A stretch of DNA of 64,000 nucleotides. It comes from Pseudomonadota bacterium (GTDB lineage: Bacteria; Pseudomonadota; Alphaproteobacteria; Micavibrionales; Micavibrionaceae). Below, in pieces: positions 45,906 to 60,242 of the stretch (within the stretch, counting starts at the first letter, position 1; every line of letters begins with the position of its first letter). Position numbers and translations under genes: made by a program. The DNA lies in NCBI GenBank assembly GCA_029558635.1, contig JAKQEE010000258.1:1-64000 (forward strand), read 5' to 3'. The notes below the pieces were generated by a model that had not been told where the DNA came from, did no database searches, and was given only the letters and a program-made list of their open reading frames with translations.

Positions 45906-46547
45906 CTATTGGCTGACCCAGATAATCCGTGCAATCCAGCTGATCTCTCTGGTTTCGAAGCTGCGGTTCTCATGGTCGGGGTTTAAAGATCTGAGTTCGA
46001 TTTTTCCGGCCGTCTGGCGCAGCAGTTCTTTAGCCATGACTTCACCCGCAGATGTTTTGACCACCACTCGGTCACCGCGGCGGATGGCCGCATCGGGCGA
46101 TACAATCAGGCGGTCGCCTGATCGGAACAATGGCATCATGGAATCGCCAGCGACTTCGAGAGCGTAGTATTTTACGTTGCCCTGCTCGGGATAGGGGAAG
46201 TGGATGTGGTCCCAGCCTTCGCCAGTCGGATATCCCGCGTCGTCGAAATATCCTTCCTTGCCGGCCTGTGCATATCCGATCACGGGAATCTTCGGTTTGG
46301 CGACTGCGGAACCTTTTTCATCGCTGATCAATGCCACGAAATCAACCATCTGTGCACCTGTGGCATCGAGAATGCGGGCGACGCTTTCTGTCGAGGGCCA
46401 ACGGGGTTTGCCGTCGGGTCCGGTGCGCTTGCTGCGGTTGAAGGCTGTCGGGTCCAATCCGGCTTTCTTCGCGAGACCCGATGTCGAGTAGCCGCAAGAT
46501 TGCGCGAGACGGTCAATAGCCAGCCAGATGGTTTCGTGGGTTAACAT
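45906..46547 (-). CDS. S24-family (LexA/CI-like) transcriptional repressor, divergent to virion cluster
   Basis: HTH-like N-terminus; YAQAGKEG cleavage-type Ala-Gly; catalytic Ser (AGDSMMP) and Lys (VMAKELL). Confidence 0.88.
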   Translation of the reverse strand: MLTHETIWLAIDRLAQSCGYSTSGLAKKAGLDPTAFNRSKRTGPDGKPRWPSTESVARILDATGAQMVDFVALISDEKGSAVAKPKIPVIGYAQAGKEGYFDDAGYPTGEGWDHIHFPYPEQGNVKYYALEVAGDSMMPLFRSGDRLIVSPDAAIRRGDRVVVKTSAGEVMAKELLRQTAGKIELRSLNPDHENRSFETREISWIARIIWVSQ

Positions 46548-46573
46548 AGGTCGATTATCTCATAAGTCTTTAA

Positions 46574-46587
46574 TCCTAGATATAGGA
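46574..46587. promoter_or_regulatory. Candidate operator palindrome
   Basis: TCCTA-gata-TAGGA in divergent intergenic region. Confidence 0.35.
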
Positions 46588-46606
46588 AAATAATCTTAAA
46601 AACTTC

Positions 46607-46635
46607 TTGACAAAGGGAGAAAACGCTGCCATAAA
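46607..46635 (+). promoter_or_regulatory. Sigma70-type promoter for the virion cluster
   Basis: TTGACA-17 nt-CATAAA. Confidence 0.65.
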
Positions 46636-46638
46636 CGA

Positions 46639-46653
46639 GAACATAAAGGGAAC
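46639..46653. promoter_or_regulatory. Candidate alphaproteobacterial LexA/SOS box
   Basis: GAACATAAAGGGAAC = GAAC-N7-GAAC, reverse complement of GTTC-N7-GTTC, just downstream of the -10. Confidence 0.5.
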
Positions 46654-46715
46654 AATTGTGTCTTGAGCGTAGTTGATCCCGAGAAAACAATCTTTCTATT
46701 GGGGTTATCTGATTA

Positions 46716-47108
46716 ATGTCTTGTCCGTCTGCCTGTCACGAGGTGTCTCGCGACACTATGGTTCCTTTTGCCTCTGCCGAGGCTGCGTGGTTTTGGTTTG
46801 TGCAATCGCAAATGGCCCGTGCCGAAGGAGCCAAGATCGTGGCGGGTGCGGGTCTGTATCCGCGCCCTTGCGAACCGGTCGATATTTGCCGCGAAGTCGA
46901 GCGTCTCTATCGCGGACGGCGATTGGTGATCGACCATATCAAAGTCATGAGGCATTACGGTATGCGGATGATGTCGCCCGATCCGCGTCGTCCGAAGGAA
47001 GCGCGCGCCCATCATGTGTGGGTCGGGGCCATGAAGCGTCTGGAGGATGCTCTGGTTTTAAAGGGGATTGTCGATTCCAGTTTGTCATGGCGGGCGAACT
47101 GTGTCTGA
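46716..47108 (+). CDS. Hypothetical protein, first gene of phage-like cluster
   Basis: ORF MSCPSACHEVSRD..; co-directional with cluster. Confidence 0.7.
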   Translation: MSCPSACHEVSRDTMVPFASAEAAWFWFVQSQMARAEGAKIVAGAGLYPRPCEPVDICREVERLYRGRRLVIDHIKVMRHYGMRMMSPDPRRPKEARAHHVWVGAMKRLEDALVLKGIVDSSLSWRANCV

Positions 47109-47472
47109 AAAGGGTGATGTGGCGTTGGTCGTCTTTAGCGACCAGACAGATTTATGGTGGCTGAAATTCCTGCGGCGCGGGTTTCGTCACTGTTTTGTGG
47201 TGATCCGGATTAATGATCGCTGGATTGCGATTGATCCGATGGTGCATTTTTTAGAGATTTCTCTTCCTGATTTGCCGGAGGATTTTGATCTGGCGGGGTG
47301 GTTCCAGGGTAGTGGAATGAAGGTTGTGGAAACACAGATATTGTTTCCTGAACGGCGGATGTACCCGCCGTTTTTTTTATCGTGTGTCGAGGTTGTCAAG
47401 CGGGTTCTGGGTCTTCACCAGCCTTTCATTCTGACGCCTGCGCAATTGTATAAATTTTTAAACAAGAATTAG
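47101..47472 (+). CDS. Hypothetical; possible permuted papain/NlpC-like cysteine peptidase fold
   Basis: GTG start at 47101 overlapping upstream stop; His (RHCFVVI) then Cys (LSCVEVVKRVLGL). Confidence 0.55.
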   Translation: MSEKGDVALVVFSDQTDLWWLKFLRRGFRHCFVVIRINDRWIAIDPMVHFLEISLPDLPEDFDLAGWFQGSGMKVVETQILFPERRMYPPFFLSCVEVVKRVLGLHQPFILTPAQLYKFLNKN

Positions 47473-47484
47473 AGGAGAGTTCAT

Positions 47485-47736
47485 ATGGGTTCTTTAGTCT
47501 CAAAGCCGAAAGCGCCTAAGACAACCACAGTTGTCGTTAGCAAACCAGCAGTTACGACCACAAATAGTTCAAGTTCTACGACGACGGAGCCCGATCCGGT
47601 TGAAGTGGCCAGAGAGCGTGCCGAAAACGTTCTGCGTCGTAACCGCGGCGTGTGGGGGAATGTGTTGACCGGGTTTCGCGGCATTCTTTCGACCGGTGAC
47701 GGTGTGCCTCAACGCAAGACTTTGCTGGGAGAGTAA
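47485..47736 (+). CDS. Small phage-cluster protein
   Basis: GAGGAGAG RBS upstream; between phage genes. Confidence 0.65.
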   Translation: MGSLVSKPKAPKTTTVVVSKPAVTTTNSSSSTTTEPDPVEVARERAENVLRRNRGVWGNVLTGFRGILSTGDGVPQRKTLLGE

Positions 47737-47739
47737 GAG

Positions 47740-49230
47740 ATGATGGATAGTAAAAAAATGGATGTTCCCGAAATTATTGTCGGGCGTTTTGACGCAGCGC
47801 GGGCGCGACGGTCTAATTGGGAAGGGTTGTGGCAGGATTGTTACGATTATGCGCTTCCCTATCGTGGCGATTTTTCCGGATATTTTTCCGGTGGATCACG
47901 GCGCGGGGAAACCCTGTTTGATGCGACGGCGCCTGATGCTGTTGATCAATTGGCTTCGCTATTGCTTGGCTATTTAACGCCGCCTTTTACCCCATGGTTT
48001 GCGATCAAGGCTGGAACGGATTTATCCGATGAAGAAGCGGAAAAACTGGCTCCGCTGCTTGATAAAACGACGCGGACGATGCAGGCGCATTTTGACCAGT
48101 CGAATTTTCTGGTTGAGATTCACCAGTGTTTTCTCGATCTGGTCGTTGCGGGGACGGCATCTCTGGCGTTTGAAGAGGCTGGGGTGGGTGAAGCATCAGC
48201 ATTCCGTTTTGCGGCATTGCCTCTTAAGGATGTCTATTTTGAGGAAGGGAATCAGGGTGGACTTGATATTGTTTACCGCGTTTTGTCACTGAGTGATTCG
48301 AAAATTCTTTCAAGATACGCGCTTGAAGAATTACCGACCGATGTTCTGCATGGCAGCCGTGATGACCCGGACAGGAAGTTCAGGGTTATCGAGGCCGTGT
48401 TTCCGCTGGAAACAGAAGGCGGCTACGGTTTGGTGGTCTTTATGGACGAAAGCGGTGAGGTTCTGGTGACCGAGCGTCTTAGTCATTCGCCCTTTATTAA
48501 TTTCCGGTGGATGAAGACGCCCGGTGAGATTTACGGTCGTTCTCCGGTGATGAAATCCTTACCTGATATTAAAACAGCCAACAAAGTGGTCGAACTGATT
48601 TTAAAAAATGCGTCGATTGCGGTCACAGGCATTTGGCAGGCCGATGATGACGGAGTGGTCAATCCGGCCAATATCGAATTGGTTCCAGGGGCGATTATTC
48701 CGAAGGCGGTCGGGTCTAAGGGTTTGACACCGCTCGAGATGCCTGCGCGGTTTGATGTCTCGCAACTGGTTCTGGAGGATTTGCGCGGGCGCATCCGTCA
48801 TGCGCTGTTGGCCGACCGTTTGCCGTCACTTGGCGGAAAAAATGCGACGGCGACCGAGATTGTCGAGCGGTCTGGCGAGATGGCGTTGCTTCTTGGGGCG
48901 ACGTTCGGGCGATTGCAGGTCGAATTCTTGCATCCGCTGATTACGCGGGCTTACCAGATTTTGCGTCGTCGCGGAGTTGTTCCCGATTTGCCGCTCGATG
49001 GGCGGACGCTTGCCATCGAATATAGATCGCCGTTGGCGCGGGCGCAGGCGGGGCAGCACGTCCAGACGATGATGGGGTGGCTGAATACTGCCGGATCATT
49101 GGGTGCGGATGCCGTGTCCAGAATCGACCGTGGGGCTGTTCTTGATTATCTCGCCCGAGTCCTCGGTGTTCCTGCATCTTTTTTAATTCCAACAAAATCC
49201 GAAATTTCAACATTTGAAGGAGAAAAATAA
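47740..49230 (+). CDS. Podovirus-type portal / head-tail connector protein
   Basis: W..DCYDYALPYRGDFSGYFSGGSRRGETLFDATAPDAVDQLASLLLGYLTPPFTPWF characteristic of T7-like head-to-tail connectors. Confidence 0.9.
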   Translation: MMDSKKMDVPEIIVGRFDAARARRSNWEGLWQDCYDYALPYRGDFSGYFSGGSRRGETLFDATAPDAVDQLASLLLGYLTPPFTPWFAIKAGTDLSDEEAEKLAPLLDKTTRTMQAHFDQSNFLVEIHQCFLDLVVAGTASLAFEEAGVGEASAFRFAALPLKDVYFEEGNQGGLDIVYRVLSLSDSKILSRYALEELPTDVLHGSRDDPDRKFRVIEAVFPLETEGGYGLVVFMDESGEVLVTERLSHSPFINFRWMKTPGEIYGRSPVMKSLPDIKTANKVVELILKNASIAVTGIWQADDDGVVNPANIELVPGAIIPKAVGSKGLTPLEMPARFDVSQLVLEDLRGRIRHALLADRLPSLGGKNATATEIVERSGEMALLLGATFGRLQVEFLHPLITRAYQILRRRGVVPDLPLDGRTLAIEYRSPLARAQAGQHVQTMMGWLNTAGSLGADAVSRIDRGAVLDYLARVLGVPASFLIPTKSEISTFEGEK

Positions 49231-49949
49231 TGACTGATACTTATCTGACTGCCGAGCTCGAAAATGCTGGTGCTGCGGATCGTCCGCAAAATGTTCCAGC
49301 AAAATTTTGGGATGCTGAAAAGAAAGAAATCCGCATTGATGCGCTGCTGGGCTCCTATGCTGCTCTGGAAAAGAAATTGTCGGGTATGGTTCCTGAAACC
49401 GATCGTGGGAGGATGCTCAAATTGATAGGTGTTCCGGATACTCCTGAAGGGTATCAGGTCAATCTGCCTTGTGATTATCTTGAGGTTGATCCTGATCTTA
49501 ATGCCCGTCTGCATGGTAAAGGATTTACACCGGAACAGGTGCAGGAAGTTTATGATCTGGCCGCCGAGAAGCTGGTTCCGATGATTTTGCAAATGGCGGC
49601 AGAGTTTCAGGCTGAACGCGAGATCGAACGTTTGGTCGAATCTTTCGGCGGTGTTGAAAAATGGCGTGACATCTCCAAACAATTGCAAGAATATGGCGTG
49701 CGCTCTTTGCCTCTGCAGGCGTTCGAAGGGATGGCGTGTTCCTATGACGGGGTGATGGCGCTTTACAAGATGATGCAAAGCGAGTCCGGTTCTTCTGTGA
49801 AAATTCGTGGCGAGAGTTCTCCATCGGATCCGATGGATGAAAAGTCCCTGCGCAAGATGATGCAGGACCCTAGGTACTGGCGTGATCGCAATTCCGCCTT
49901 TATCGAGAAGGTGACGAAGGGTTTTGAGCGTTTGTATGGAGGTAAGTAA
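49230..49949 (+). CDS. Putative capsid scaffold/assembly protein
   Basis: Position between portal and capsid; PAKFWDAEKKEIRIDALLGSYAALEKKLS typical of phage scaffold N-termini. Confidence 0.7.
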   Translation: MTDTYLTAELENAGAADRPQNVPAKFWDAEKKEIRIDALLGSYAALEKKLSGMVPETDRGRMLKLIGVPDTPEGYQVNLPCDYLEVDPDLNARLHGKGFTPEQVQEVYDLAAEKLVPMILQMAAEFQAEREIERLVESFGGVEKWRDISKQLQEYGVRSLPLQAFEGMACSYDGVMALYKMMQSESGSSVKIRGESSPSDPMDEKSLRKMMQDPRYWRDRNSAFIEKVTKGFERLYGGK

Positions 49950-50348
49950 TTATGCTTGCGATCCGGCGAATTCGCGGGCGTTGAAATCGTCGATGACGTT
50001 CTGGAACGTTTTTCGGATGTCGCCGGTCAGCGGTTCGAATTGGAGCGAATAGCTTTCGGCCATTTTGCGGACGACTTTGGCGCGGTGTTTGACGTGGACC
50101 AGATGGTCGCGGAGGTGGAATTTCATCTCGACGTCCATTTCCTGTCCGACGCCCAGAGGACGCGGGTCACCGAACACTTTAACTCCGCCCGGACTCCAGT
50201 CGAGGATCGGGTGGGCTTTGCCGTCAATAAAGCCGATGCATTGGTCGCAGGATCGGCGCGGATGTGCGCGGCGGGATGTGAATCCGTTGCTACCATCGTC
50301 CGAGAGTGTTTTTTTGATTCCAATTGCTGACATAATGTTTTGCAGCAT
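49950..50348 (-). CDS. PilZ-domain protein (putative c-di-GMP receptor)
   Basis: RRAHPRR (RxxxR) and DWSPGG (D/NxSxxG) motifs; antisense within the virion cluster. Confidence 0.85.
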   Translation of the reverse strand: MLQNIMSAIGIKKTLSDDGSNGFTSRRAHPRRSCDQCIGFIDGKAHPILDWSPGGVKVFGDPRPLGVGQEMDVEMKFHLRDHLVHVKHRAKVVRKMAESYSLQFEPLTGDIRKTFQNVIDDFNAREFAGSQA

Positions 50349-50414
50349 ACAGATGCTCCTGTGTTCGTCCAGTAAAAGTTATTTGTATTCGTTCAGTTAC
50401 TTATAGACACACAG

Positions 50415-50444
50415 TTACGGAAACGCTTCCTCACATTTCCGTAA
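50415..50444. other. Perfect inverted repeat between pilZ and capsid genes
   Basis: TTACGGAAA-12 nt-TTTCCGTAA. Confidence 0.75.
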
Positions 50445-50471
50445 TTACCAACCGTCTCTAATATAGGGGTA

Positions 50472-50488
50472 TTGTAAAAAAATTACAA
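50472..50488. other. Short inverted repeat
   Basis: TTGTAA-aaaaa-TTACAA. Confidence 0.5.
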
Positions 50489-50658
50489 GTTTTCGATGCG
50501 TTCAGACTGTCGCACCCTTGTGGGCAGGCGGTCTGGATCGTCGCAGAGAACGAAGAGCCTTATCTTCGCCTGCACTTTACATGGTTCCGAATTGGCCGGA
50601 CTCCGACAACCAAACGGGATTTTTTCCTTTTAAACCAACAAATTAACAAGGAGTAACC

Positions 50659-51489
50659 ATGAGTACCGAACTCAACAAGGCGTTCGTCAAGCAGTTCGAA
50701 CGCGAAGTCCATGAAGCCTATCAGCGTCAGGGGTCCAAACTGCGCGGTGCGGTCCGTACAATTAACAATGTGAAAGGTTCAAGTGTTGTCTTCCAGAAAG
50801 TCGGCAAAGGAACTGCGTCCACCAAGTCCACCCACGGTATGGTTCCGGTGATGAATCTGTCCTATGCCTCGGTCGAATGTGCGTTGCAGGATTATTATGC
50901 CGGTGACTGGGTCGACAAATTCGATGAACTGAAAATCAACCATGATGAGCGTCAGGTGATTGCCAATGCTGGTGCCTATGCGCTGGGCCGCAAAACCGAC
51001 GAGTTGATTATTACAGCTTTGGCGACTGCATCAACCTATAGCATTGCCGATAGTAATACTGGCATGACTCTCGACAAGCTTTTGGGAGCATTTGAATTGC
51101 TGGGGGCGGCCAATGTGCCGGATGATGGCGGGCGTTTCGCTGTGATCGGTTGGAAGCAATGGAGTGAAATGCTCAAGATCCCTGAATTCGCTAGCAGTGA
51201 ATTCGTTGGTCCTGACGAGCTTCCCTATAAAGACACGCAGGCCAAGAAATGGCTCGGCACCACCTGGATTCCTCATTCGGGTTTGCCGATTAACGGTAGT
51301 GATATTCGTTCCTGTTTCTGGTTCCACCGTACCGCCATCGGTCATGCATCTGGTTCCGATGTCCAAACTGATGTCAGCTGGCATGGCGACCGTGCAGCGC
51401 ACTTCGTCAACAATATGATGAGCCAAGGCGCTTCCCTGATTGATCAGGAAGGTGTGGTTATCGTCAATTGTGACGAGACGCCTGACTAG
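50659..51489 (+). CDS. Major capsid protein
   Basis: Strong RBS (AAGGAG); KAFVKQFEREVHEAYQRQGSKLRGAVRTI..GSSVVFQKVGKGTAS phage capsid pattern. Confidence 0.88.
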   Translation: MSTELNKAFVKQFEREVHEAYQRQGSKLRGAVRTINNVKGSSVVFQKVGKGTASTKSTHGMVPVMNLSYASVECALQDYYAGDWVDKFDELKINHDERQVIANAGAYALGRKTDELIITALATASTYSIADSNTGMTLDKLLGAFELLGAANVPDDGGRFAVIGWKQWSEMLKIPEFASSEFVGPDELPYKDTQAKKWLGTTWIPHSGLPINGSDIRSCFWFHRTAIGHASGSDVQTDVSWHGDRAAHFVNNMMSQGASLIDQEGVVIVNCDETPD

Positions 51490-51595
51490 ATTTTCTTCGG
51501 ATTATAGCGGGAATGGCGGCGGGTGATGCCGCCATTTTCGTCTCAAAATCCTTTGAAACTCATTTTCTCAAAATTTATTTTATAGGAGTTTAAGT

Positions 51596-51838
51596 ATGTC
51601 TTTACAAAGCAAGGACCTCAGTGTGCTGGCCTATGCCAACAAATTCACTCTGTGGCATTACACGACGTTCGATTCGTCGGTTGTCACCACGGGTTATTTC
51701 AACAACGCGGCGTCGATGCTGCGCGTTAACGATCTGATTATCGTGAATATAGATACGGATGGCACACCGTCTACGGTGTTTTATATCGTCACTGCCAACA
51801 CGGGCTCGTCCGTGACGATAGCGGCCTTTACCGCCTGA
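51596..51838 (+). CDS. Small virion-cluster protein (possible head decoration)
   Basis: TAGGAG RBS; beta-rich 80 aa directly after capsid. Confidence 0.65.
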   Translation: MSLQSKDLSVLAYANKFTLWHYTTFDSSVVTTGYFNNAASMLRVNDLIIVNIDTDGTPSTVFYIVTANTGSSVTIAAFTA

Positions 51839-51889
51839 TCCCTCGCCCTTTGGTCAGGGGGGGCCGCTTTGATGGTCCGTACCGATGGG

Positions 51890-51923
51890 AGGTGGCCCAA
51901 GCTTTCGGGTCACCTCTTTTTTA
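51890..51923 (+). terminator. Intrinsic terminator inside virion operon
   Basis: GAGGTGgCCC-aagctttc-GGGtCACCTC followed by TTTTTT. Confidence 0.8.
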
Positions 51924-51931
51924 AGATTTGT

Positions 51932-51964
51932 TCCAATTAAAAACTGGAAATTTTTAATTGGAAG
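51932..51964. other. Perfect 13-bp inverted repeat
   Basis: TTCCAATTAAAAA-ctggaaa-TTTTTAATTGGAA. Confidence 0.9.
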
Positions 51965-52020
51965 TCCTCAGATGCCGGACAAGCTTCGGGCAAAGCCCGC
52001 CTCGCCTTGCTCGGTGCAAT

Positions 52021-52055
52021 TTTGAATAAGAATTAGAGAGGTTCTTATTCAAAAT
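52021..52055. other. Perfect 13-bp inverted repeat upstream of tail gene
   Basis: TTTTGAATAAGAA-ttagagagg-TTCTTATTCAAAA. Confidence 0.9.
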
Positions 52056-52081
52056 CACAATTTTTTTGAAAGGTTTTTATC

Positions 52082-52651
52082 ATGGCTTTGTCCGATATTG
52101 GTTTATGTTCGCGTGCGCTGGTCAAAATCGGTGCGCATCCGATTGCGTCCTTCTCGGACGGTACGGCCTCCTCTGAGATTGCGGGGCTTTTGTATGATTC
52201 CGTTCGTGATGCGGTTTTATCTTCCTATGGGTGGAGTTTTGCTACCGGACAGGTCACGCTGACACGGCTTACAACTGCGCCAGCGGCTGACTATCAATAT
52301 GCGTATCAATTGCCCAATGATTTCCTGCGTGCGATTTCCGCCGGATATCCTGCGCGCGGGAGGGGGCTTTCCTACCGTATTCAAGGAAGACAGCTTCATA
52401 TCAATGCCGAAGAGGTGTTGCTCACCTATATTTACCGTCCGGTTGAGGAAACATTTCCGCCCTATTTTGACATGGCGTTGATTGCGCGTCTGGCGGCTGA
52501 GTTTTGTATTCCATTGACTGAAAATGTATCGCGGTCTGAAGTTTTATCCAAACTTGCCGAACAGGAATTTACCCGTGCGCGCCAGATCGACGCGCAGCAG
52601 GATAGTCCAAACCGGATCGAGAGTTTTTCCTTAATTGATGCGAGGGAGTAA
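52082..52651 (+). CDS. Tail tubular protein A-like (gp11-type adaptor)
   Basis: ALSDIGLCSRALVKIGAHPIASFSDGT..A..LLYDSVRDAVLSSYGWSFA. Confidence 0.85.
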   Translation: MALSDIGLCSRALVKIGAHPIASFSDGTASSEIAGLLYDSVRDAVLSSYGWSFATGQVTLTRLTTAPAADYQYAYQLPNDFLRAISAGYPARGRGLSYRIQGRQLHINAEEVLLTYIYRPVEETFPPYFDMALIARLAAEFCIPLTENVSRSEVLSKLAEQEFTRARQIDAQQDSPNRIESFSLIDARE

Positions 52652-52653
52652 TC

Positions 52654-54549
52654 GTGAAAACCATTCAGATCAAAACAACGTTTACGGCCGGTGAAGTGTC
52701 TTCGGATCTGCTCGGGCGTGGGGATTTGCGTGCTTATGAGAACGGGGCGCTGAAACTCCGTAACGTCTTTATCCAGCCGACAGGAGGGATAAAGCGTCGT
52801 TCTGGGCTGCGGTATATTGATACGGCTGCCGGTGCGGGGCGTCTGATTTCGTTCGAGTTTAATACCGAGCAGACTTATTTGTTGGTTTTAACCGATCTCC
52901 AGATTGCGGTTTATGCGAATGGAGTGTTGCAAACAATGCTGGTTTCGCCATGGGCAGAAGCGGATCTGGCACAACTTGCCTGGACGCAATCAGCTGATAC
53001 GCTTCTTCTGGTCCATCCTGACTATCCGCCCAAGAAACTGACGCGTAGCGGTGGTGGAGTATGGGCGTTGGTCGACTGGGTGTTCTATTCCGAGACTAAT
53101 CGTATTCACCAGCCAATGTATAAGTTTGCGGATAGCGCCATTACCGTTACGCCGAGTGGAACCGGCGGGACCATTACATTGACGGCGTCTGCCTCAGTAT
53201 TCGAGGCCGGTCATGCGGGGACACGCTTGCGGGTTGGAAATAAGGAAGTTCAGGTCACTTCGGTTGATTCACCAACAGTTGTTACGGTTTCAGTTAAAGA
53301 AACTCTAGGTTCTACGTCGGCGACGGTGGATTGGGAAGAGCAGTCTTTTTCCCCCGTGCACGGTTATCCGGTGACTGTGGCGTTCCATCAGGATCGTTTG
53401 GTGATCGGCGGTTCGCAGGATTTGCCGAACCGATTGTGGTTTTCTCAATCGGGCGATTTGTTCAATTTCGATTTGGGGACAGGACTGGATGCCGAGGCGA
53501 TCGAGTTTGGGATTTTTTCGGATCAGGTCAATGCCATTCGCGGTGTGTTTTCGGGGAGACATCTGCAAGTATTTACAAGTGGTGCGGAATGGATGGTCAC
53601 GGGTGATCCGCTCACTCCGTCTACCGTCCAGATTAAACGCCAGACGCGGGTCGGGTCGCGGGTTGATCGCTATATTGCGCCTTTGGATGTTGACGGGGCA
53701 ACGTTGTTTGTGGCGCGTAACGGTCAGGAGCTTCGCGAGTTTGTTTATACAGATGTCGAGCAAGCTTATCAGTCAACCGATCTGGCACTCTTGTCGAAAC
53801 ATATTATTACCACGCCTGCTGATCAGGATTTTGATCAAAAGCGGCGCTTGTTGTTTCTGGTTCGTGAGGACGGGAAATTTGCAACGCTCACGGTGTTCCG
53901 AGCCGAGGAGGTGGCGGCATGGACTCTCCATGAGACGGCGGGCTCGATGCTCTCCGTCTGTGTTGCGGGTGATGTCGTCTATTTTCTAATCAACCGTGAC
54001 GGGGCTTACCTGATTGAGCAGATCGATGACGATCTTCATCTTGATTCTGCGTTAGCCGGAGAGAGCGGGACGCCTGCCAATGAGTGGAGTGGGCTTGGAC
54101 ATCTGGAAGGGAAAACCGTATCTGTCGTGGCCGATGGTCGTGTGCAGGCCGCTGAAATCGTAAGCAGTGGAGTGGTGACGCTTGATGGTGCGTATAGCAC
54201 TGTCCAGATCGGGTTGCCTTATACCCATTTGATCGAGCCTTTGCCTCCTGCCAATACGACAGATATCGGAGCCGCGCGGGCGGTCCGTCTGGTCGAGGCC
54301 ACGTTCCGTCTTAAAGAGACGGCGGCGTTACAACTCAATGTCGGGCGCGGGTTAAAAGATGTTTCGCTTCGTCAGTTGGGTGATGATGAAATTCTCGATG
54401 CGCCCGCGCCGCTTGTGTCGGGCGATATCCGCGTTCAGGCCTATGGATGGTCTTATGATACCAGCAAGCCTCTGTGGGTGATTGAACAGAGTTTGCCGTT
54501 ACCGTTTGCACTGTTGTCGGTGCAAATGAGTGTGATGGCTAATAGTTAG
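52654..54549 (+). CDS. Tail tubular protein B-like (gp12-type nozzle)
   Basis: TTFTAGEVSSDLLGRGDLRAYENGALKLRNVFIQPTGGIKRRSGLRYI; PVTVAFHQDRLVIGGSQDLPNRLWFSQSGD. Confidence 0.88.
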   Translation: MKTIQIKTTFTAGEVSSDLLGRGDLRAYENGALKLRNVFIQPTGGIKRRSGLRYIDTAAGAGRLISFEFNTEQTYLLVLTDLQIAVYANGVLQTMLVSPWAEADLAQLAWTQSADTLLLVHPDYPPKKLTRSGGGVWALVDWVFYSETNRIHQPMYKFADSAITVTPSGTGGTITLTASASVFEAGHAGTRLRVGNKEVQVTSVDSPTVVTVSVKETLGSTSATVDWEEQSFSPVHGYPVTVAFHQDRLVIGGSQDLPNRLWFSQSGDLFNFDLGTGLDAEAIEFGIFSDQVNAIRGVFSGRHLQVFTSGAEWMVTGDPLTPSTVQIKRQTRVGSRVDRYIAPLDVDGATLFVARNGQELREFVYTDVEQAYQSTDLALLSKHIITTPADQDFDQKRRLLFLVREDGKFATLTVFRAEEVAAWTLHETAGSMLSVCVAGDVVYFLINRDGAYLIEQIDDDLHLDSALAGESGTPANEWSGLGHLEGKTVSVVADGRVQAAEIVSSGVVTLDGAYSTVQIGLPYTHLIEPLPPANTTDIGAARAVRLVEATFRLKETAALQLNVGRGLKDVSLRQLGDDEILDAPAPLVSGDIRVQAYGWSYDTSKPLWVIEQSLPLPFALLSVQMSVMANS

Positions 54550-54570
54550 AAATTTCAAAAGGAGACGAAT

Positions 54571-55008
54571 ATGGGGACATTAACTTCGGTTTTGACGCCG
54601 ATTTTGAGTATTGGCAGTGCCTTAAGCGGTGCGCAGCGCGTGTCACAAGACAATCGCGAGAATGATTTGAGGCTTCGGCAATATGAGCAGAATGCGGCGC
54701 TTCATAAAAAGCAGAATTTGTTTGATTTGCAAAATGCCGAAACCGAACGGAGAACTAAATTAAAAAAACTGATCTCGGCACAACGCGCCCAGTTTGGCAG
54801 CGGTGGCATTCGCTCTGGCGCAGGTTCAAGTGAGGCTGTTCTGGAAGGACTGTTTTCGGATTCGGACATTGAACGTCAACAAGGCGAAGGTGATGTGGCG
54901 CTGGCCAACCAAAAAATCAATCAAGGGATTACGCAGCAGCGTCAACTCAATCTTTTGCAAAAAGAGCAGTTGCGCCAGAAAACCATTTTGAACACCCTGC
55001 TTAGCTAA
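54571..55008 (+). CDS. Putative internal virion protein
   Basis: Helical, LSGAQRVSQDNREN..RAQFGSGGIRSGAGS; position after the nozzle gene. Confidence 0.65.
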   Translation: MGTLTSVLTPILSIGSALSGAQRVSQDNRENDLRLRQYEQNAALHKKQNLFDLQNAETERRTKLKKLISAQRAQFGSGGIRSGAGSSEAVLEGLFSDSDIERQQGEGDVALANQKINQGITQQRQLNLLQKEQLRQKTILNTLLS

Positions 55009-55032
55009 TCCGCTTTTAAAAGGAATAAATTT

Positions 55033-57054
55033 ATGACCGAGCATATTAGAATGCCCGATGTGGTGCCGCTTGTGCGCTATCTGGCGAATGGCACGCAGAG
55101 CGTCTTTGAATATCCGTTTCCGATCTTTGCAAGTGAAGATCTGAAGGTTTTGTTTGATGGGGCGGAACAAATATCAGGATTTACGATTGATGGAGCCGGT
55201 GCAACTGCCGGCGGAACTGTAACGTTCGATGTTGCTCCTATTTCGGATGTTGTCGTGACGTTGGAACGGCGGATGGCGTTTGAACGGCTCACCGATTTTG
55301 TCGAAGGTGGCAATTTTGCGGCTGCGGCCATTAATGCCGAGCTTGATTTTCTGGTGGCGGGTCTTCAACAGGTTTCGCGTGACCAGATTCCGATGTTACG
55401 TTTCGATGAGGGGGAAGCGCCTTCGGTGACGTCTTTGCCTGCGCGGGATGTGCGGGCGGGGAAGGCACTCGGGTTTGACGGCAATGGCGACCCTGTGGCG
55501 GTGTCTTTAGCGGGCAGTATGGCTGCTCCTGATTTCACGGCTGTGGGGAATGGTGCGGTGACGCGCACTAACCATGACAAATTTTCCGATTTTGTATCGG
55601 TCAAGGATTTCGGCGCTGTGGGTGACGGTCTGACCGATGATACTTTGGCCTTTCAGCAGGCTTTGGCGGCGCACGATCATGTCTTTGTACCCAGTGGTGT
55701 TTACATTGTTACAGGGACGATTGCAGTCGGCGATGGGCAATCCTTGGCGGGGGCTGGTGATTCGTCAGAAATCAAAACATCGTCTTCGATTGTACTTGTT
55801 CACCTGACCGGTTCTTATGCGCGCTTGGCGACTCTGAAATTGTTCGGCGGGGATGTCGGGATCAAGCTTTCGGGGCTGTCTGGGCCGTGCGTTCAGAATG
55901 CGGTGGTGGACGTGTCAACATGGCAGGCACAGACGGGAATTTTGCTTGATGGCGGGTCTGATACAGGCAAGCCCTGTTACTGGAACAATTTTGTGCGGGT
56001 GTTGGTGGCTCAACCGTTTGTGAATGGCATTCACTTGAAACGAAGCGGAGCAGGGGATACGCCCAATGCCAACCGCTTTATGCAATGCCGTGTTTATTCT
56101 CTGGGGGCTACGACTTCGGGAAGCGGGATTTACATCGAAGAAGGGTCGTTCAACAACAGCTTTACCGATACGGAAGTCAATGTGAACGGAACGGCGCAGG
56201 CTTGTGTCAGATGTGGTGCTGGATCAAATAAGACGATTTTTGTGAATCTGTATTGTGAATCATCTAATTCAGTTCCAAATGTAAAACTTGATGCTGGATC
56301 AATCGAGACGGCTATTTACAATCTCTTGTCGGCTAGTGATGGTGCAGCGATTTGGGATTTGTCGGGTGGGCAGTATACGGCGTTCAATGCGGGGTATCCT
56401 TATAAAAACCGTTTGCAGAAAACGACTTGTACCGACCTAACGTCAACTTTGCAGCGCTATGATACTGAGTATATCGACGCAAGCGGGACGGTGACACTTG
56501 ATTTATCGCACTCTATCCATCTGGTGTCGTCTTATGGTGGCGCGTTGACGGTGCAGTTGCCCAATGCCGCCGATGCGGCGGCGGCGATGATGATGGTCAA
56601 GAAAATCGACACATCAAAAAACATTATCACCGTAACGGAATCAGGCGGAACAGGGCCGGATGATCGTTCCTATTATCTGGGCGGAGAAAACGATTTCGTG
56701 ATGATGATGTCGAACGGGGCGGAATGGTTTGTGATTTCAACCAACCGTTCGGCGGGGAATACACGCTATTACGACGGGTCGGGGACATATGATATCGACA
56801 TGGCGGTGGATGTGTATTTGTTGTCTTCCTATGGCGGGGTTTTGACGGCGAGGTTGCCGCCAGCCAATGCACCGGAAGCGATCGGGCGGATGGTCACAAT
56901 CAAGAAAACTGACGTATCGGCCAATCCTGTCATGGTTTCCGAGTTGGGTGGTTCGGGTCCGGACCAGTATACCCAATCGTTGACCTCACAATTTCAGTCG
57001 ATCACGGTCGTGTCCGATGGCGGGCATTGGTATATTGTCAGCCGCTTTTCTTAG
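55033..57054 (+). CDS. Tail fibre/tailspike with pectate-lyase-like beta-helix
   Basis: T7-like N-terminus (YLANGTQSVFEYPFPIFASEDLKV) then VSVKDFGAVGDGLTDDTLAFQQAL beta-helix motif. Confidence 0.88.
   Translation: MTEHIRMPDVVPLVRYLANGTQSVFEYPFPIFASEDLKVLFDGAEQISGFTIDGAGATAGGTVTFDVAPISDVVVTLERRMAFERLTDFVEGGNFAAAAINAELDFLVAGLQQVSRDQIPMLRFDEGEAPSVTSLPARDVRAGKALGFDGNGDPVAVSLAGSMAAPDFTAVGNGAVTRTNHDKFSDFVSVKDFGAVGDGLTDDTLAFQQALAAHDHVFVPSGVYIVTGTIAVGDGQSLAGAGDSSEIKTSSSIVLVHLTGSYARLATLKLFGGDVGIKLSGLSGPCVQNAVVDVSTWQAQTGILLDGGSDTGKPCYWNNFVRVLVAQPFVNGIHLKRSGAGDTPNANRFMQCRVYSLGATTSGSGIYIEEGSFNNSFTDTEVNVNGTAQACVRCGAGSNKTIFVNLYCESSNSVPNVKLDAGSIETAIYNLLSASDGAAIWDLSGGQYTAFNAGYPYKNRLQKTTCTDLTSTLQRYDTEYIDASGTVTLDLSHSIHLVSSYGGALTVQLPNAADAAAAMMMVKKIDTSKNIITVTESGGTGPDDRSYYLGGENDFVMMMSNGAEWFVISTNRSAGNTRYYDGSGTYDIDMAVDVYLLSSYGGVLTARLPPANAPEAIGRMVTIKKTDVSANPVMVSELGGSGPDQYTQSLTSQFQSITVVSDGGHWYIVSRFS
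56458..57051 (+). repeat. Two tandem ~100-aa C-terminal tailspike modules
   Basis: (HSIHLVSSYGGALTVQLP..VKKIDTSKNIITVTESGGTGPD) vs (VDVYLLSSYGGVLTARLP..IKKTDVSANPVMVSELGGSGPD). Confidence 0.8.
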
Positions 57055-57109
57055 ATTTTTGGTTTTTTTCCGACTCAAAACTCGTTGAAAAGATGAACAG
57101 GGGAATGTT

Positions 57110-57439
57110 TTGAAATCTATTACAATTGAAGAGACCACGCGGGCGCAGGTGGCGGAATTCCTGCCGCGCGCTATATCCAAGGCTTTGCAGTCTTACCACG
57201 AATTTATGGAAGGGACCGCGTTTGGTGAGGAAGCTAAAGAGTTTTCCGATGCGCATAAGGCGGCGAAAGTCGCCATTTCGCATATCGAGCTTTTGATCAA
57301 GCTTGCGAAATGGGCTGACCTGCCGGATGCGGCGATTGAAAGCAAAGGGGAGTTGGATGAATTCTCGAATCTTATGAATCGCGCTGAAGGTGATGTCAAA
57401 GATTATTACGCCCACAGGGTTGAAGGTGATGACGAATAA
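57110..57439 (+). CDS. Small helical protein preceding terL (TerS candidate)
   Basis: TTG start with GGGGA upstream; directly upstream of terL. Confidence 0.5.
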   Translation: MKSITIEETTRAQVAEFLPRAISKALQSYHEFMEGTAFGEEAKEFSDAHKAAKVAISHIELLIKLAKWADLPDAAIESKGELDEFSNLMNRAEGDVKDYYAHRVEGDDE

Positions 57440-57441
57440 AA

Positions 57442-58923
57442 ATGGTTTCAAGAGACTGTGGATTTCCGCTTTTCGTGGCGCTGTGGAACAGGGTACAAGG
57501 CCTGTCGACCCCGGCGGTGCATTTCGTGATCGCGGCGTTTTTAGAGACGAGTTGGGAGCGCGGGGACAGGCGGCTGTTGCTGATGGCATTCCGTGCGTGC
57601 GGGAAATCGACACTTGTTGGTCTGTTTTGCGTTTGGCTTTTGTTAAAGTCACCTGACGTTCGGATACTGGTTTTATCTGCCGATCTGCCGCTGGCCAAAA
57701 AGATGGTGCGAAATGCCAAGCGGATACTGGAAAAGCATCCACTCACACGGCATTTGAAACCTGCAGCGCTTGATCAGTGGGCAAGTGACCGGTTTACGGT
57801 GAACCGCGAGACAGAACTTCGCGACCCGTCGATGCTGGCCAAGGGGATTATGAGCAACCTGACGGGGACACGTGCTGATGTGGTGATCTGTGATGATGTC
57901 GAGGTGCCTAAAACTAGCGATACGTCCGGGAAACGCGCATTTCTGCGCGAGAGGTTGTTGGAACTGGATTATATTCTGACACCCGATGGAACGCAGTTAT
58001 ATGTCGGGACGCCGCATTGTTTCCACTCGATTTATGCGGAGAAACCTTTGGGCGAATATGGGGAGGCCCAGATTTTTCTCGAAGGTTTTTTGCGGATGGT
58101 GTTGCCTGTTTTAAACGCGCGGGGTGAGAGTGTGTGGCCCGAACGGTTTCCATTGGAGAAAATCCGTGCGATTGAAAAACGCACGGGTCCTGCGCATTTC
58201 AAAAGCCAGATGATGTGCGAGATTTTCAATATTGCGGACGGGTATTTTTCGGCTGACCAGCTTGGGATTTATCAAAAGATTATTGATTATCGCGAGGCGA
58301 ACGGGCGGCCTGTGCTTGAAATTGGCGGGCGGAAGATGGTGTCTGTTTCGGCGTGGTGGGACCCGTCTTTCGGTAAAGACGGTGGTGACCGCAGTATATT
58401 GGCGATTGTCTATACTGATGAGGACGGGGAATATTTCCTTCATCATCTGGAGCAAATCAAAACCGATGCGAAGAGTAAGGACGATGAAGCTACGCAGCAA
58501 TGTAAACAAGTGGCAGAGTTGGCAGCGCGGTTTTATTTGCCGTCTATAGCTCTTGAAACCAACGGGATTGGCAAGTTTCTGCCAGGAATTTTGCGTCGGG
58601 AGCTGGCGGCGATGAGATTGACTTGCGCGGTGTGTGAGATCACGTCGAACAAGCCTAAGGCTGTGCGTATTCTGGAATCTCTGGATGCGGTGATGGCGGC
58701 ACGGGCGCTCCATATTCACGGATCGGTTCTCAGGACGCCGTTTTTATCCGAGCTTGAGGATTGGCGGCCCACGGGCAATCGGGGACATGACGATTGTCTG
58801 GATGCGGTGGCAGGAGCGATTTCGTTAGAGCCGGTGCGGATCAAACGTGTGATGACGGGTAGAGGAGCTGCATCATGGCGCGGGGTGCAGCCGCATACGG
58901 CGCAAAGTGAGTTTGAGGTTTAG
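57442..58923 (+). CDS. Terminase large subunit
   Basis: Walker A-like AFRACGKST, Walker B VVICDDVE, nuclease motifs WWDPSFGKDGGDRS and DDCLDAVAGA. Confidence 0.9.
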   Translation: MVSRDCGFPLFVALWNRVQGLSTPAVHFVIAAFLETSWERGDRRLLLMAFRACGKSTLVGLFCVWLLLKSPDVRILVLSADLPLAKKMVRNAKRILEKHPLTRHLKPAALDQWASDRFTVNRETELRDPSMLAKGIMSNLTGTRADVVICDDVEVPKTSDTSGKRAFLRERLLELDYILTPDGTQLYVGTPHCFHSIYAEKPLGEYGEAQIFLEGFLRMVLPVLNARGESVWPERFPLEKIRAIEKRTGPAHFKSQMMCEIFNIADGYFSADQLGIYQKIIDYREANGRPVLEIGGRKMVSVSAWWDPSFGKDGGDRSILAIVYTDEDGEYFLHHLEQIKTDAKSKDDEATQQCKQVAELAARFYLPSIALETNGIGKFLPGILRRELAAMRLTCAVCEITSNKPKAVRILESLDAVMAARALHIHGSVLRTPFLSELEDWRPTGNRGHDDCLDAVAGAISLEPVRIKRVMTGRGAASWRGVQPHTAQSEFEV

Positions 58924-58934
58924 GAAACAATAAA

Positions 58935-59180
58935 ATGACTGATTTTTTGGATGCGTTCGGGTGGTGGATTGCGGTGATCGAATTGCCTGTGTTGTCGGCC
59001 TTGTTCTGGATGATCCAGCATTTAAGAGACGATCTTGCCAACCACAGGCTGGAGGTCGCAAAGAATTATGCGCAGGTGCAGGATTTGCGGTTGCTGGAAA
59101 ACCGTATCACGTCGCATTTGCTGCGGATCGAAGCCAAGCTCGATGTTACGGCGCTTAAAGCCGAGAAAAATTCCCAATAG
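58935..59180 (+). CDS. Small membrane-anchored phage protein (lysis/spanin-holin region)
   Basis: N-terminal TM plus coiled coil. Confidence 0.6.
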   Translation: MTDFLDAFGWWIAVIELPVLSALFWMIQHLRDDLANHRLEVAKNYAQVQDLRLLENRITSHLLRIEAKLDVTALKAEKNSQ

Positions 59181-59192
59181 AAAGGATTAATC

Positions 59193-59675
59193 ATGGATAA
59201 ACCGAAATTGACACCGGTGCCCAAAGAGGCAGCGGACGAGAACGCACGTGAATTTTATAAGGAAATGGAAGTTGATATTCTGGCGCGGACCATTTGGGGC
59301 GAGGCCCGCGGTGAAGGGAAGACAGGGATGGAGGCCGTGGCGATGGTTATTCTCAACCGTGCGACAGTAGCGCAGGCGCGCGGCGGGTACTGGTGGGGGA
59401 ATTCTGTAATCGAGGTTTGTCAAAAACCTTATCAGTTTTCCTGTTGGAACAAGGAAGATCCGAATTACCGGAAGCTGATTTCAGTGAATGACAGTGATGT
59501 TTATTTTGCAACGGCACAGCGTGTGGCTCGGCGGGCCTTGCTTGGGTTTCTAAAGGATTCGACTTACGGGGCAACGCATTATCATGCGCGTCATGCCTCG
59601 CCGTCATGGACCAAGGGGCAGCGTCCGTGTGCGGTGATTGGTCGTCACATTTTCTATCATCTGGCGGAGGGATAG
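59193..59675 (+). CDS. SleB-like cell wall hydrolase (endolysin)
   Basis: LARTIWGEARGEGKTGMEAVAMVILNR..SCWN..ATHYHA. Confidence 0.88.
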   Translation: MDKPKLTPVPKEAADENAREFYKEMEVDILARTIWGEARGEGKTGMEAVAMVILNRATVAQARGGYWWGNSVIEVCQKPYQFSCWNKEDPNYRKLISVNDSDVYFATAQRVARRALLGFLKDSTYGATHYHARHASPSWTKGQRPCAVIGRHIFYHLAEG

Positions 59676-59678
59676 CAC

Positions 59679-60242
59679 ATGGCGTTGCCTGTTTTGGCGC
59701 AAATCGGCATTCCGGTTCTGGTTAAGGGGCTGGCGGAGGGGTTGGCGCAGCTTAAATCCCCCGTGGCGCAAGGGGCTTCAGCTGCTCTTGCGGAGTTGGG
59801 GGATGCGTTTGGCAATGGTCTGGTGTCTCCAGAACAGATGGCCGAACTCAACCGCCATCTTGAAAAAGTTCAGGAGATTGAAGCGTCCGAGCGACAAAAT
59901 TCGATCCAGCAGATCAATGAAAGTCTCAGGGCCGAAGTTGCGTCGAGTGACCCTTATGTGCGACGGATGCGGCCGACCTTCGGTTATATCATCGCGACAA
60001 CGTGGGGTGCGCAGATGTTTGCCTTAGCCTATATCATTGTGTTTGAAACGTCGCAGGCGGCGCTTGTGATTGATGCGATGGAAAAGCTTGGCACGATCTG
60101 GGCGGTCGGTTTGTCGGTCCTCGGGATTTATGTGTACAAACGTAGTGAGGAAAAGAAGTTGTCGTCGCCTGTACTTCAAGCCAAGGAGGAAATTGTTGCT
60201 CCTGCCGCACCTCCGGTTAAACAACCAAAATATAATGAATAG
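59679..60242 (+). CDS. Holin of the 3TM GTA-type family
   Basis: SDPYVRRMRPTFGYIIATTWGAQ..IWAVGLSVLGIYVYKRSEEKK. Confidence 0.8.
   Translation: MALPVLAQIGIPVLVKGLAEGLAQLKSPVAQGASAALAELGDAFGNGLVSPEQMAELNRHLEKVQEIEASERQNSIQQINESLRAEVASSDPYVRRMRPTFGYIIATTWGAQMFALAYIIVFETSQAALVIDAMEKLGTIWAVGLSVLGIYVYKRSEEKKLSSPVLQAKEEIVAPAAPPVKQPKYNE

Follow-up and report, generated by a model that had tools for sequence, protein, structure and literature searches.

A vertically inherited, podovirus-derived particle module as a candidate second gene transfer agent lineage in Alphaproteobacteria

RcGTA-type gene transfer agents (GTAs) are the best-studied programmed DNA transfer agents of Alphaproteobacteria. In Azospirillum, two reports describe mitomycin-inducible particles with approximately 10 kb of DNA in A. 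lipoferum strains, 4B among them, and in Azospirillum sp. B510 (PMC3899980, PMC3245306), with random host fragments as the DNA cargo of the 4B particles (PMC3899980). Here, we describe a set of phage-type particle genes in a member of the Micavibrionaceae (GenBank assembly GCA_029558635.1, a 3.65-Mb genome in 439 contigs). The window analysed is a stretch of 64,000 nucleotides, positions 1 to 64,000 of contig JAKQEE010000258.1 (C422), and the particle module occupies positions 45906–60242 (approximately 13.6 kb) as one plus-strand cluster with an S24 regulator gene divergent at its left end. Profile matches identify virus-derived structural, packaging and lysis genes, as expected of a GTA. A first-pass annotation, made from the sequence without database searches, had proposed the gene content, coordinates and flanks as well as a lack of replication and integration genes; profile searches (Pfam, PHROG and NCBIfam) agree with the former, and the latter, again typical of a GTA locus, is borne out by open reading frames (ORFs) and profile searches over the module and the genes directly beside it. 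The module is almost certainly a domesticated podovirus that is inherited vertically, not a stray prophage, and we put the probability that it acts as a gene transfer agent at roughly 0.7. The best reading is a second alphaproteobacterial GTA lineage, podovirus-derived and unrelated to RcGTA.

Within its family the module is near-universal. The gene for the large terminase subunit (TerL) is present in 93 of 107 family genomes, which cover 37 of 39 genera, and is almost always single-copy. In the order, 106 of 145 genomes have the capsid gene, and in an even sample of the class (387 genomes) it is found at ≥50% identity in 60. Patchy presence, which the first-pass annotation had set against its own proposal, is thus not what the TerL and capsid surveys show in the family. 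Genomes without TerL or capsid often keep decayed fragments of module genes, which fits loss in place. In approximately 40 family loci synteny extends over the whole module, from S24, orf130 and orf134 to the lysis genes, and the order is largely kept in distant families and named isolates. A scan of named genomes gave at least 583 confirmed module stretches (of at least 600), and carriers among the 80 retained include Azospirillum, Skermanella, Niveispirillum, Caenispirillum, Rhodovibrio, Roseospira, Elioraea, Telmatospirillum and Terasakiella. No copy was found on any of 72,556 plasmids. The module spans much of Alphaproteobacteria, wider than first supposed.

Descent was compared in 48 genomes by FastTree, with five concatenated module proteins for the module tree and rpoB for the host tree. 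The two trees have 28 of 45 splits in common (shuffles: mean 0.23, maximum 3), 22 of the 25 strongly supported module splits are present in the rpoB tree, and the patristic distances correlate with a Spearman rho of 0.92, with none of 999 permutations as high. Both split sharing and distance correlation bear out the species-tree-congruent phylogeny that had been named as a check. The ratio of nonsynonymous to synonymous substitutions (dN/dS) is mostly 0.01–0.2 for every module gene, TerL included, in seven close pairs; synonymous distances are near saturation in the wider pairs, and most weight is placed on the three closest, in which the tailspike has a dN/dS of 0.028–0.061. These values are well below 1, the mark of purifying selection, so that both this and the host-linked inheritance expected of a GTA are found.

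In five distant genomes the module is split, with the halves each time on a single contig. The left half comprises S24, orf130 and/or orf134, portal and scaffold, the right half capsid to TerL, and they lie 153, 60, 133, 244 and 12 kb apart in G318, G259, G362, G444 and G183, respectively. Portal, capsid and TerL ORFs are open in all five; in G362 and G444 the scaffold gives a match broken into two, with possible frame breaks. At distances of 12–244 kb, one particle could therefore hardly package its own genes. Scattered genes are common, although not universal, in other GTAs, and this arrangement at several chromosomal places is seen in the five relatives; the window holds one cluster. In Azospirillum cavernae (G194; L258 and L259) the portal gene is in two open pieces approximately 17 kb apart, and module function may therefore be in the course of loss there.

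The first-pass annotation had proposed a host-regulated particle, and the sequence of the control region lends this some support. The S24 (CI/LexA-like) regulator (45906–46547, minus strand; Peptidase_S24 2.6e-22, phrog_4 repressor 1.7e-22) has an A95-G96 cleavage pair and an S136/K173 dyad that are kept in 50–52 of 53 homologues. Between it and the particle operon, on the plus strand, lie TTGACA (46607–46612), by its sequence a −35-like element of the late-operon promoter, and GAACATAAAGGGAAC (46639–46653), a LexA/SOS-type box of the form GAAC-N7-GAAC; the LexA motif of Alphaproteobacteria is GTTC-N7-GTTC (PMC3323433). TTGAC is found at 45–70 bp from the S24 start in 60 of 83 distinct control regions, and the exact box in 48 of 83 distinct divergent S24/orf130 regions versus 0.32 in shuffles. 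A LexA-type box also stands 5' of the module in several Azospirillaceae loci. Given this conservation, SOS and hence mitomycin induction is predicted, that is, the particle operon would be SOS-inducible.

A close phage origin was sought in 50,697 phage records and rejected, given that the best identities to real phages are only approximately 31% for TerL, 34% for portal, 35% for tail tube B and 46% for capsid. A complete podovirus carrying the module, which by the first-pass annotation would have refuted its proposal, is absent from this collection. Pelagibacter phage Hodr and the HTVC010P-type pelagiphages likewise have portal, scaffold, capsid, orf80, tail tube A and tail tube B in this order, and the Hodr capsid is 46.5% identical to that of the window. 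However, these are 34-kb free-living phages whose portal and tail are just approximately 31–35% identical to those of the module, and in Hodr no match was found for S24, orf130, orf134 or TerL. Because Hodr and the module agree in gene order over the stretch from portal through tail tube B, the ancestor of the module was probably a podovirus broadly of the Hodr kind.

IMG/VR has 176 stretches with a capsid match, of which most of the longer ones examined contain this module too and have the look of prophage call-outs; many database prophage calls may be such modules. Four stretches (L136, L151, L163 and L165) were rejected as complete phages with the module: the capsid is close (67–71%), the other genes are at approximately 30%, and L136 contains a Toprim primase gene. 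By these genes they rank as viruses whose capsid gene is related to that of the module. Their capsids nest inside the bacterial clade with moderate support; gene content and tree suggest capsid gene exchange. The one closer match among the 50,697 phage records is a 5-kb human faecal virome scaffold (L194, MT838907.1) that bears this module, with a portal at 52% and a capsid at 61% identity, and could be particle or cell DNA.

On the GTA reading, podovirus particle genes that the host has retained and passed on vertically would serve gene transfer. DNA damage would relieve LexA-type, and probably also S24, repression at one late promoter; the host would assemble short-tailed capsids, the T7-type TerL would load host DNA into them, holin and SleB would lyse the producing cell and the tail would deliver the DNA into related cells. 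We infer that the DNA packaged and transferred would be random host DNA. The module may also be the source of the random 10-kb-DNA particles reported in A. lipoferum, a hypothesis for which A. lipoferum Sp59b offers a capsid-TerL half (the portal half was outside that search), near a Fur gene and what its translations suggest are F1-ATPase genes. The fullest version of the proposal is an ancient podovirus-origin GTA whose acquisition predates the split between Micavibrionales and Rhodospirillales-type families, under SOS control, mutually exclusive with RcGTA, the true source of the Azospirillum particles and, in some lineages, equipped with tagged peptidoglycan hydrolases bearing a DATGR motif; we put it forward tentatively, as a whole that is rather more apt to fail in some part than to hold.

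The hydrolases belong to a set of extra genes that stand between particle genes in related clusters (L046, L047, L057, L061, L264, L266 and L346), several of them with peptidoglycan-active domains. The DATGR[IM][IV] motif that the inserted genes share lies near the N-terminus, in the centre or near the C-terminus of their products; of 12 matches to it in 24 family genomes, 10 fall inside the module, with 0 in a reversed control. The motif may be a virion-loading tag, a reading tempered by the kinship of some of the tagged proteins to each other.

The late operon of the window (plus strand except where stated) opens with orf130 (46716–47108), conserved in synteny and possibly a regulator. No family match and no PDB match were found for it, and a role as antiterminator was discarded because the sole match, to a Q-engaged complex, has a meaningless E-value of 8.3. 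It is followed by orf134 (47068–47472), a conserved module protein that is syntenic in most loci and whose true start is uncertain, and by orf83 (47485–47736), a small protein conserved in synteny 5' of the portal. The head genes are the portal or head-tail connector (47740–49230; Head-tail_con 7.6e-132), the scaffolding protein (49230–49949; Phage_T7_Capsid assembly 1.2e-10) and the major capsid protein (50659–51489; Phage_capsid_2 5.9e-82). Between scaffold and capsid, on the minus strand, lies a gene for a PilZ-domain (c-di-GMP-type) protein (49950–50348; PF07238 8.6e-7), which is kept at this gap across Micavibrionaceae and missing from distant named loci; it is a possible c-di-GMP input to the module. 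The capsid gene is followed by orf80 (51596–51838; phrog_18004 1.8e-10), a small conserved and syntenic virion-type protein, and by an intergenic repeat (51929–52000) with three similar copies (78–82% identity) elsewhere in the genome, on contig C328.

Tail tubular proteins A (52082–52651; phrog_394 1.6e-47) and B (52654–54549; phrog_376 2.6e-154) precede a probable internal virion protein (54571–55008), which is syntenic and has a weak profile match to the type that the first-pass annotation had named (phrog_418, 0.0084). The tailspike or tail fibre (55033–57054; phrog_1640 tail protein 4.4e-21) is conserved over its full length in the family, and its N-terminus and a pectate-lyase-like segment (1.1e-12) support the earlier call. 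Upstream of TerL, orf57k (57110–57439) encodes a small helical protein (three-helix model, pLDDT 84) that is a small-terminase candidate by position only; as the model has no significant PDB fold match, this assignment was not adopted. TerL itself is of the T7 type (57442–58923; NF033889 2e-125, phrog_38 1.7e-78), and its ATPase and nuclease acidic residues are near-invariant in 51 sequences. The lysis end consists of orf81 (58935–59180; phrog_29007 3.2e-16), a small, syntenic and probable membrane protein, a SleB-type cell-wall hydrolase or endolysin (59193–59675; Hydrolase_2 8.6e-20, phrog_938 endolysin) and a GTA-type 3TM holin (59679–60242; PF11351, GTA_holin_3TM, 7.2e-10). RarA/MgsA and DegP flank the module on one side and NhaA on the other, the GC content equals that of the surroundings, and no tRNA was found near the module. 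The S24 regulator ORF, the PilZ gene, orf130, orf134, orf57k and the LexA-type box are parts that the first-pass annotation had overlooked.

Several points weigh against a GTA. Particles, packaged DNA and transfer are predictions from the genes, and related phages have capsids that hold approximately 34 kb, so that the compact 13.6-kb module could package itself. TerL is missing from 14 of the 107 family genomes, one genome (G096) has two diverged module copies (L052 and L053), rpoB is a single host marker, and three of the 25 strong module splits are missing from its tree, which conflicts strongly with two of these. The Azospirillum particles were reportedly described as siphovirus-like by Boyer in 2008. 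Their genes were never assigned with certainty according to the later reports, whose authors suggested another, RcGTA-like region (PMC3899980, PMC3245306).

The main rival is a domesticated particle with another job, either a PBSX-like DNA-packing killer or a tail-borne lytic weapon, which transfers no genes. All evidence for domestication fits it equally, the family includes Micavibrio predators, the tailspike is strongly conserved and peptidoglycan hydrolases with a DATGR-type motif are inserted in related clusters. However, the portal, the capsid and the TerL ATPase and nuclease residues are under selection, which a DNA-free killer would not need, and many carrier genera, such as Azospirillum, Elioraea and Terasakiella, are not known as predators; we regard this explanation as unlikely, at perhaps a fraction of the weight given to gene transfer. 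Far less probable is a lineage of still-active temperate podophages, diverging together with the hosts and drawing on replication genes from elsewhere in the genome. Related capsid genes do occur in real phages and patchy vertical descent is possible in phages (PMC10386132), but what marks a temperate podophage, its own integrase and replication genes and a genome in one piece, is not found: the locus has neither type of gene, the two halves can be separated by as much as 244 kb while their ORFs stay largely intact, the plasmids and phage records searched gave no plasmid copy and no complete phage with the module, and the module is mostly single copy and tree-congruent. The least credible of the three is a decaying, functionless prophage remnant. 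A module without replication and integration genes, of which only fragments persist in some relatives, would suit decay, but the ORFs are intact across dozens of genera with a dN/dS mostly of 0.01–0.2.

No prior description of the module was found in the open literature, although subscription journals or preprints may hold one. A second, non-RcGTA lineage derived from another type of virus, if true, would mean that DNA-transfer particles have been domesticated more than once in Alphaproteobacteria. Gene transfer would then also be likely in predators, plant-growth bacteria and many uncultured groups, in families without RcGTA, and the Azospirillum particles could be matched with a concrete set of genes.

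Among described systems, the phiGT1-like prophages are comparable in that their podovirus structural modules lie in alphaproteobacterial chromosomes and descend in part vertically; they are set apart by their description as temperate and lytic phages that persist patchily and have their centre in Rhizobiales, a description that mentions neither domestication nor Micavibrio (PMC10386132). Their hallmark is two tail tube A paralogues, whereas the module has one tail tube A gene. FpGTA of Faecalibacterium is likewise GTA-like and probably podovirus-like, with genes in more than one operon; it differs, by its description, in its Firmicutes host and in the experimentally shown packaging of approximately 9 kb of host DNA (PMC12946183). 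Kinship with RcGTA was rejected, given that the marker GTA_TIM (PF13547) is missing from the source genome and from all 60 sampled carriers; it occurs in 36 of the 387 class genomes, with an overlap of 0 versus 5.6 expected (hypergeometric P = 0.0017, ignoring kinship among genomes). Like the RcGTA-type agents of Rhodobacter and Caulobacter, the module nevertheless has genes for virion, packaging and lysis but none for replication, descends vertically under purifying selection and encodes a holin of the family that Pfam names for GTA release. In contrast to RcGTA, which is siphovirus-like, its portal, capsid and TerL are of the T7/podovirus type.

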